Positions 25,302 to 27,069 of a DNA stretch of 41,163 nt are shown piece after piece; position 1 is the first letter of the stretch; each line of letters begins with the position of its first letter. The notes under the pieces were generated by a model, which was not told where the DNA came from, did no database searches, and saw only the letters and a program-made list of their open reading frames with translations. Made by a program: the position numbers and the translations under genes. Source of the stretch: Candidatus Woesearchaeota archaeon (GTDB taxonomy: Archaea; Nanobdellota; Nanobdellia; Woesearchaeales; DSVV01); assembly GCA_016219865.1 (NCBI GenBank), contig JACRKF010000002.1:1-41163 (forward strand), written 5' to 3'.

Positions 25302-25862
25302 TTACCTCAATATCTCATAATTCATGATTTTGCGTAACCTTTCTTTATCTGGAACTAATTTATCTAATTCCCCGCCAGGAATAGTTGGATGTGTCTGCAA
25401 GTATTGCGCATACTGGCGGATTGATTCTGCGTCGTTTACATTAACTAAATGATTCAATAAAAACCAAATTGATAATTGTTCACCATATTTGCTTTTAACA
25501 CTGCAAACACGGCAATGTTTTGGTTTTGCTGTGTGTATTGCACATCCTTTTATTTCGTCAAAAAGCATGCATTTTCCGTACGGTTTCCCTTCTTTTTTTA
25601 TCTGCTTTAATTTGTATAATGATGTATTAAACTTTTGATGTTCATCAAAGTACAATTGTTTTACTTTTTCAATTGATATTCCAAAAAAATCTGCAATCTT
25701 TGGAATATCTTCCTCTAATACTAATCCTGAATCAATTGAACAGCATTTGCCACATTGCGTACATTCTTTTCCATAATGTTCAATAATATCTATTGGCGTA
25801 TCTTTTTCGATAATAACAGATGGATCTTTCTTAATCACTTGTTTTATCTTGTGAAACTCCAT
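25302..25862 (-). CDS. YkgJ-family cysteine-cluster protein
   Basis: 'CTQCGKCCSI...GKCMLFDEIKGCAIHTAKPKHCRVC'. Confidence 0.88.
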   Translation of the reverse strand: MEFHKIKQVIKKDPSVIIEKDTPIDIIEHYGKECTQCGKCCSIDSGLVLEEDIPKIADFFGISIEKVKQLYFDEHQKFNTSLYKLKQIKKEGKPYGKCMLFDEIKGCAIHTAKPKHCRVCSVKSKYGEQLSIWFLLNHLVNVNDAESIRQYAQYLQTHPTIPGGELDKLVPDKERLRKIMNYEILR

Positions 25863-26412
25863 TGTTTGTTTGTTCCTCTTTTTTTTTACTTACTTTAACT
25901 TTAGCATATCGAATAATAGTTTCATTCAATGCATACCCTTTTTGTAAAATTGAAAGCACTGTATTCTCAGGAAATTGATTGTTTTCTTCTCTCAATAATG
26001 CTTCGTGCTTGTAGGGATCAAAAGGAATATGAATCGTATCAATTGGACGTAACCCAAAACCTTTTAAAATATCCATCAATTGAAAATAAAGCAACCCCAT
26101 TCCTTTTTCAAACTCGCCTTTATTTTGCGCATTGCGCAATGCCAATTCAAATGTATCAATAATAGGCAACAATTTAGTAATTACAGCGATATTGCCGCGA
26201 AAAACACTTTCTTTTGAAGTTTTATCTGTATGTTTCCTAAAATTATCAAAATCTGCTTGCAATCGCTGCAATAATGCAGTTAATTCTTGAATCTTTAATT
26301 CTTGCAACTCTTGCTGTGATGGTTGTTTTTCTTCTTTTGTTTCTGGTTGTGTTTCAGTACTCTGCTTTTCATGCTCTTGATGAGTATTTTCTTGTTTTTT
26401 ATGGTCTTTCAT
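25831..26412 (-). CDS. grpE: Nucleotide exchange factor GrpE
   Basis: 'LQADFDNFRKHTDK...LLPIIDTFELAL...GFGLRPIDTIHIPFDPYKHEALL'. Confidence 0.93.
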   Translation of the reverse strand: MKDHKKQENTHQEHEKQSTETQPETKEEKQPSQQELQELKIQELTALLQRLQADFDNFRKHTDKTSKESVFRGNIAVITKLLPIIDTFELALRNAQNKGEFEKGMGLLYFQLMDILKGFGLRPIDTIHIPFDPYKHEALLREENNQFPENTVLSILQKGYALNETIIRYAKVKVSKKKEEQTNNGVSQDKTSD

Positions 26413-26571: not shown

Positions 26572-26585
26572 TTTAAAGAAAAAAG

Positions 26586-26704
26586 CGAGCCTGTCCGGAC
26601 TTTCAAACAAACAAGTTAACTGTTTGATATTTGAACCGGAGCTTAGCGGTTACTGCGTAATAACACCGAAGCCGCTAGTACTATCCAAGCTATACTACAG
26701 GCCC
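26586..26704 (-). tRNA. tRNA-Arg (anticodon UCG) with two introns: 15 nt at 37/38 (26651-26665) and 30 nt at 59/60 (26600-26629)
   Basis: Mature 74 nt: GGGCCTG TA GTAT AGCTTGGATA GTAC T AGCGG CTTCGGA CCGCT AAGC TCCGG TTCAAAT CCGGA CAGGCTC G; all four stems pair; the T-loop intron has a perfect BHB (TTCA/TGAA helix, AAT and AGT bulges). Confidence 0.92.
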
Positions 26705-26784
26705 ACCTAGTAATGAAATAATAAGCACCTATTTTAATAGTTTTACATTTTGAGAGATAATATAAATTGAAAAAAATAAGAAAT

Positions 26785-27069
26785 CTAAACTTTGCACATA
26801 ACAATTTCAATACTTGAAACACGAACGTCCTTGCCTTCTTTATTTTGAAATTGTTCTGAATCTACCTTGATATCTTTTATACGAATCTTTCCTTCAAGAA
26901 ATCTTTTGCTTGACACTTCTGCAATATCAACTGCAGTAGAGATAAACTTTCCTCGCGCTTTAATTACAACTTCTTCTGCGTTTTTAGCAGTAAATTGCAT
27001 TACAACACTTGTTACATAATTCATAAAAGGTTTTGTTCCTATAAATATTGAATTATCTGTTCCTGTCAT
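26785..27069 (-). CDS. albA: DNA/RNA-binding protein Alba
   Basis: 'NSIFIGTKPFMNYVTSVVMQFTAKNAEEVVIKARGKFISTAVDIAEV'. Confidence 0.93.
   Translation of the reverse strand: MTGTDNSIFIGTKPFMNYVTSVVMQFTAKNAEEVVIKARGKFISTAVDIAEVSSKRFLEGKIRIKDIKVDSEQFQNKEGKDVRVSSIEIVMCKV

Follow-up and report, generated by a model that had tools for sequence, protein, structure and literature searches.

We confirmed that positions 26704-26586 on the minus strand of the window, the 41,163-nt stretch of DNA analysed here, encode a real tRNA-Arg(UCG), apparently single-copy and predicted to be spliced twice, once inside the T-loop. Direct reading gives the anticodon TCG and a complete 74-nt mature cloverleaf with the conserved T-loop and D-loop letters once 15 nt at position 37/38 and 30 nt at position 59/60 are removed. 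An earlier note made from the letters of this DNA had proposed the same two-intron gene at the same two positions, and all its coordinates were correct. The gene falls into five pieces on the minus strand. Exon 1 (26666..26704, 39 nt) spans positions 1-37, with the acceptor 5′ strand, D-arm, anticodon stem 5′ strand and TCG, and is followed by intron 1 (26651..26665, 15 nt; TGTTATTACGCAGTA, read from 26665 to 26651) at the canonical 37/38 site. Exon 2 (26630..26650, 21 nt) spans positions 38-59, with the anticodon stem 3′ strand, variable loop AAGC, T-stem 5′ strand and TTCAAA. Intron 2 (26600..26629, 30 nt) follows within the T-loop, before exon 3 (26586..26599, 14 nt) supplies T60, the T-stem and acceptor 3′ strands and discriminator G73, with no encoded CCA. 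Read directly, the acceptor GGGCCTG/CAGGCTC forms seven pairs including one G-U, and the other stems are GTAT/GTAC (D), AGCGG/CCGCT (anticodon) and TCCGG/CCGGA (T). An A/T-rich element, GCTTATTATTT, lies upstream of the gene (26716..26726, minus strand), with ACTTATTATT at the corresponding place in a relative of the same genus, Candidatus Woesearchaeota archaeon RIFCSPHIGHO2_02_FULL_32_12 (G001), and may act as a promoter; a T6 run just 3′ of the gene (26579..26584, minus strand), seen in G001 too, may act as a terminator. From their translations, the neighbouring minus-strand ORFs are Alba-like upstream (26785-27069) and GrpE-like downstream (25831-26412), the latter adjoining a DnaK-like ORF.

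When all sets of one or two BHB-like introns were ranked by cloverleaf and motif score, the top solution was this same pair, in agreement with the direct reading. The intron annotator was purpose-written for this analysis, and its splice sites are predictions. Requiring 7/7 acceptor pairs, T8, G10, A14, a fully paired 5-bp T-stem and a TTCRA loop, in which an insert was allowed, gave one match in the real window, both strands included, and two in 100 dinucleotide-shuffled windows (0.02 expected). As had been foreseen, a covariance search misses the gene: the Rfam tRNA model is silent over this stretch even at E<=10, and ARAGORN did not detect the locus with or without anticodon-loop introns. 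The search proposed for another tRNA-Arg(UCG) found none in the DNA of the window's own assembly (G000, 91% complete). CGA codons number 47 among 9,716 codons in the long ORFs of the window.

The two splice sites differ in their motifs. At 37/38 the motif is relaxed, as originally described, with a CTTC/GCAG central helix of 3/4 pairs and two inner pairs. The T-loop motif had been called a perfect, textbook BHB, with a central helix TTCA/TGAA and a 3′ bulge AGT. A strict form (4-bp centre, two 3-nt bulges) does exist, but the register is ambiguous, with the 5′ bulge AAT in the strict register and TAT in the minimum free energy (MFE) register. The RNAfold MFE structure of the T-arm (-14.1 kcal/mol) has a 6-bp centre with bulges UAU/AGU, and forcing the 4-bp centre and two 3-nt bulges gives -12.0 kcal/mol with an internal loop on the intron side. 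The 6-bp register is thus about 2 kcal/mol better, and 'perfect' was too strong a word. The predicted fold of the precursor contains the T-loop bulged helix, and the tRNA-Asp intron of G000 forms a cleaner BHB than this one.

The gene is closely matched in G001, a named Woesearchaeota archaeon whose shared genus bears out the earlier view of the window as DPANN-like. G001 matches the query at 96% over nucleotides 21-119 and at 100% over 1-23 (96-100% for exon 1), with introns of 14 and 29 nt at the same two sites and a D-loop insertion of about 42 nt. The differences between the two genes fall in the intron loops, and the exons match. Among more distant relatives, tRNA-Arg(UCG) is intronless in G006, G009, G010 and G027, carries the 37/38 intron only in others such as G002 and G046, and has a D-loop intron in G025. 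Because these genes are intronless or carry other introns, the T-loop intron may be either a local gain or lost elsewhere. The failure of every standard tool run to recognise the gene would suit a tRNA pseudogene in decay whose T-loop had gained a hairpin by chance. We consider this extremely improbable, since all stems are intact, G001 keeps the same insert at the same site, no other copy was found in G000, and many other tRNAs carry an insert at 59/60 with a shared TTCR/YGRA centre.

Interrupted tRNAs are common in the rest of the window's genome. The Rfam tRNA model places 18 tRNAs over its cut-off in G000. A partial list built from weak matches, T-arm patterns and resolved stretches gave 28 resolved genes, 19 of them interrupted: nine lack introns, 11 have a 37/38 intron only, and eight carry a non-canonical intron, all eight scoring below the Rfam threshold. 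Five of the eight are interrupted at 59/60 (Arg(UCG), Asp(GUC), Pro(UGG), Ile(UAU) and a Ser-like GAU gene), and the remaining three in the D-loop (Glu(UUC)), near 10/11 (Gln(UUG)) and near 30/31 (Leu(UAG)), with D-arm boundaries that are approximate and often ambiguous. The tRNA-Ile(UAU) gene (G000:C17:2202-2343, L112; G001:C35:2877-3035, L127; also G026:C50, L307) has three introns, in the D-loop and at 37/38 and 59/60. These are best resolved in G001, and we relied on that orthologue as the automatic solution for G000 is poorer. A UAU anticodon for tRNA-Ile is uncommon and has been noted in N. equitans and Korarchaeum (PMC8450103). The class II Ser-like gene (G000:C3:21659-21774, minus strand, L120; also in G002, L300 and L301, and G014, L302) has an anticodon loop YTGATRC that would read GAU, a long variable arm, G73, and complementary leader and trailer sequences (ATTGAG/CTCAAT; TTTTAGG/CCTAAAA). 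Its 59/60 insert sequence (CTTG..CCCTTG) is kept across genera and families, its Rfam tRNA score is only 23 bits, and it is possibly not a translating tRNA. A tRNA-Thr free of introns, with A34 (anticodon AGT), is identical in both congeners (G000:C31:13204-13276; G001:C34:16751-16823); A34 is unusual in archaea.

In the order's 61 genomes the Rfam model detects between 6 and 43 tRNAs each. Where completeness is 95% or more the count still runs from 9 to 43, and a single-contig genome rated 100% complete has 13. Introns at 59/60 with the full TTCA/TGAA centre were read from stretches of G004, G005, G008, G026 and G029, in tRNAs for Glu, Asn, Ala, Leu, Met, Gln, Ser, Ile, Asp, His and Gly, and their bearers include other families and genera of the order. 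Often such a gene holds another intron or two, for a maximum of three per gene. A search of all 61 genomes for the 59/60 pattern gave no excess over a reversed control (231 matches against 288), so only the contrast between groups of genomes counts as evidence. Within genomes at least 90% complete, those with 20 or fewer model-detected tRNAs had 101 matches against 62 in the control, whereas those with at least 28 had 32 against 75 (Spearman -0.52, p 0.0005, a contrast uncorrected for genome relatedness). If the insert were instead left in place, the mature tRNA would carry an extended T-loop hairpin, and the Ser-like T-loop insert on G000:C3, conserved between genera and families, does suggest that some inserts may be more than introns. 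For tRNA-Arg(UCG) we regard this as very improbable, as the inserts are free in length (16-47 nt) and in the sequence of their cores but keep bulged motifs at fixed T-loop ends, and a T-loop left interrupted would disrupt the elbow between D-loop and T-loop.

Near-identical introns were found in different isoacceptor tRNAs within the order. One family (TATCCC..GGATTTGAAAG) occurs in Leu(UAG) of G005, Ser(GCU) of G008 and Ala(GGC) of G029, and, shortened, in both Glu(UUC) and Glu(CUC) of G004. A second (CAAACTGTG..CGCAGT) occurs in Ser(GGA) of G005 and Arg(GCG) of G018, with a related intron in Asn(GUU) of G004. The intron of the Arg(GCG) gene (G018:C9, L043) is 47 nt long and sits at 59/60, and its core is similar to the core of the Ser(GGA) intron in G005, which belongs to another family of the order. 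When 91 intron pairs were compared using mononucleotide shuffles, the top pairs reached z 6 to 16, values inflated by AT-rich composition and by a TGAAAG end that was only partly removed. The T-loop intron of tRNA-Arg(UCG) itself is only a weak match: within the 91 pairs, its 5′ end agrees in 10/11 letters with the Ser(GGA) intron of G005 (z 2.9, p_shuf 0.013). The presence of related 59/60 introns in different isoacceptors across the order suggests intron transposition; the case is good but not final.

Taken as a whole, the gene is very probably a functional tRNA-Arg(UCG), cut by the splicing endonuclease EndA at both introns and joined by RtcB, whose T-loop intron belongs to a recurrent 59/60 class. 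We infer expression, splicing, the subunit make-up of EndA and the route of transposition from sequence. EndA would cut both ends of both introns at BHB-like motifs, RtcB would join the exons into a normal 74-nt tRNA, and this tRNA, apparently the genome's sole copy, would read CGA codons. Since the two introns form independent hairpins, either order of removal would be possible. The TTCR/YGAA centre of the 59/60 introns is built on invariant T-loop letters, so an intron that moved between tRNAs could still be cleaved.

The ligase RtcB is encoded in G000 (G000:C4:15092-16405, E 8e-171). EndA had no match in the G000 assembly, and the 7.5-kb EndA region of G001 gave only short repeat-like matches there. 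Because the whole region lacks a counterpart in G000, we put the absence down to an unfinished assembly. We rejected loss of EndA in favour of an assembly gap, which the missing neighbourhood and 91% completeness fit but do not prove. Pfam PF01974 scored over its cut-off in 57 of the 61 genomes, G001 included, nearly always with one match. EndA of G001 is about 187 aa (stop-to-stop frames in the order are 175-258 aa, for a subunit of about 180 aa), lies above the TIGR00324 endA cut-off, and is closest among solved structures to the N. equitans alpha chain (3IEY_A, 3.6e-37), then to M. jannaschii 1A79 (3.8e-31). The catalytic residues Y123, H133 and K164, together with R157 and W184, are invariant in 52/52 EndA sequences. 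By alignment to solved alpha chains, R157 and W184 correspond to the Arg/Trp pair for bulge recognition; W184 aligns with a Trp in the N. equitans, M. kandleri and Sulfolobus alpha chains and with a Tyr in M. jannaschii. In the 95%-complete G046, two full-length diverged EndA genes (G046:C81 and G046:C26; L168, L169) both carry the catalytic residues and could be either paralogs or contamination.

According to reviews, relaxed introns are removed efficiently only by (alpha-beta)2 and epsilon2 enzymes (PMC6379350, PMC4033280), and the lengths of the CSL and ASL loops and their importance for broad specificity have been described (PMC12397907). The order's EndA appears to fit neither broad design. 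It is a single catalytic subunit of about 180 aa with an N-terminal domain, as in alpha4 enzymes, and is not the roughly 390-aa three-unit fusion with an ASL of the epsilon2 type, as the loop from G44 to E57 is 14-16 residues long with no insertion. The crenarchaeal-type CSL, a 15-18 residue loop with a Lys, was not found in the order's EndA sequences. No consistent second PF01974 or NF007085 match was seen in the 61 genomes, including the single-contig complete one. Extra weak matches to a beta subunit were dismissed as an ABC ATPase, RadA, and methyltransferase-like, membrane or secreted proteins. The predicted broad-specificity enzyme therefore stands in part: the Arg/Trp pair is present, but neither an epsilon2 nor a heterotetrameric enzyme was found in the order. 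The earlier reasoning from a non-canonical site to a broad enzyme also needs adjusting, since a BHB-like motif at a T-loop position would not by itself call for such an enzyme. The better argument is the relaxed 37/38 site together with the D-arm introns of other genes, which would imply a broad EndA in place of the narrow specificity for strict BHB that goes with the alpha4 type.

With no beta subunit found and relaxed introns present, two options are left: a hidden beta subunit or a broad single-subunit enzyme. The T-loop insert could be removed by an (alpha-beta)2 EndA as in Nanoarchaeum equitans, with a diverged beta present and nothing new about the enzyme. The N. equitans alpha chain is the best solved match, the C-terminal Trp is invariant in 52/52 sequences, and the crenarchaeal beta chains 3P1Z and 2ZYZ are missing from the same match list, so a short beta could escape. 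Against this, the N. equitans beta (1.2e-15) and the M. kandleri beta are both detectable from the same G001 query, no second match recurs among the 61 genomes, and the N-terminal domain is retained as in alpha4 enzymes; we find a hidden beta unlikely. The broad single-subunit enzyme, an alpha4-like EndA without a beta subunit or a CSL or ASL that splices relaxed and non-canonical introns, up to three per tRNA, with T-loop introns spreading between tRNAs, is a proposal that we put forward tentatively, at a little under even chances.

Sugahara in 2008 and Fujishima in 2010 are said to have described how Thermoproteales tRNA genes carry multiple and non-canonical BHB introns. Such introns are documented in that group, with 59/60 among the known sites (PMC4090602, PMC4033280). 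The Woesearchaeota genes share with them the 59/60 site, up to three introns per tRNA, and similar introns in different tRNAs that are read as transposition. Unlike the Thermoproteales, the Woesearchaeota are an uncultured DPANN lineage with a congener from non-thermal samples, and their EndA looks single-subunit where that of Thermoproteales is (alpha-beta)2. The Asgard Atabeyarchaeia and Freyarchaeia, also a metagenome-derived archaeal group with many non-canonical and multiple introns, have 92-95% of their tRNAs interrupted, some missed by tRNAscan-SE (PMC11291895); they belong to a different phylum, and their proportion compares with 19/28 resolved genes in G000. Micrarchaeum acidiphilum (ARMAN-2) has non-canonical introns and an epsilon2 EndA (PMC6379350, PMC12397907). 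It is likewise a small DPANN-type archaeon with the Arg/Trp bulge-recognition pair, whereas the Woesearchaeota EndA lacks the three-unit fusion and ASL. N. equitans has the closest solved EndA alpha chain, but differs in having a beta subunit and split tRNAs. In Nst1, similarly, an EndA alpha gene was reported with no beta found, and only two tRNAs bear introns (PMC3655853).

Among the open-access papers searched, none dealt with tRNA introns in Woesearchaeota; subscription papers or databases may hold such work. The kind of intron is known, as 59/60 and multiple introns occur in other archaea; what is unusual is the host lineage, a new one for it, and the extent. In this order, standard models seem to leave tRNA counts badly incomplete, and genes missing from such counts can be mistaken for lost genes or for a sign of dependence as a symbiont. 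The finding also raises the sharp question of whether a single-subunit EndA can be broad, which, if true, would break the rule that broad specificity needs an (alpha-beta)2 or epsilon2 enzyme.
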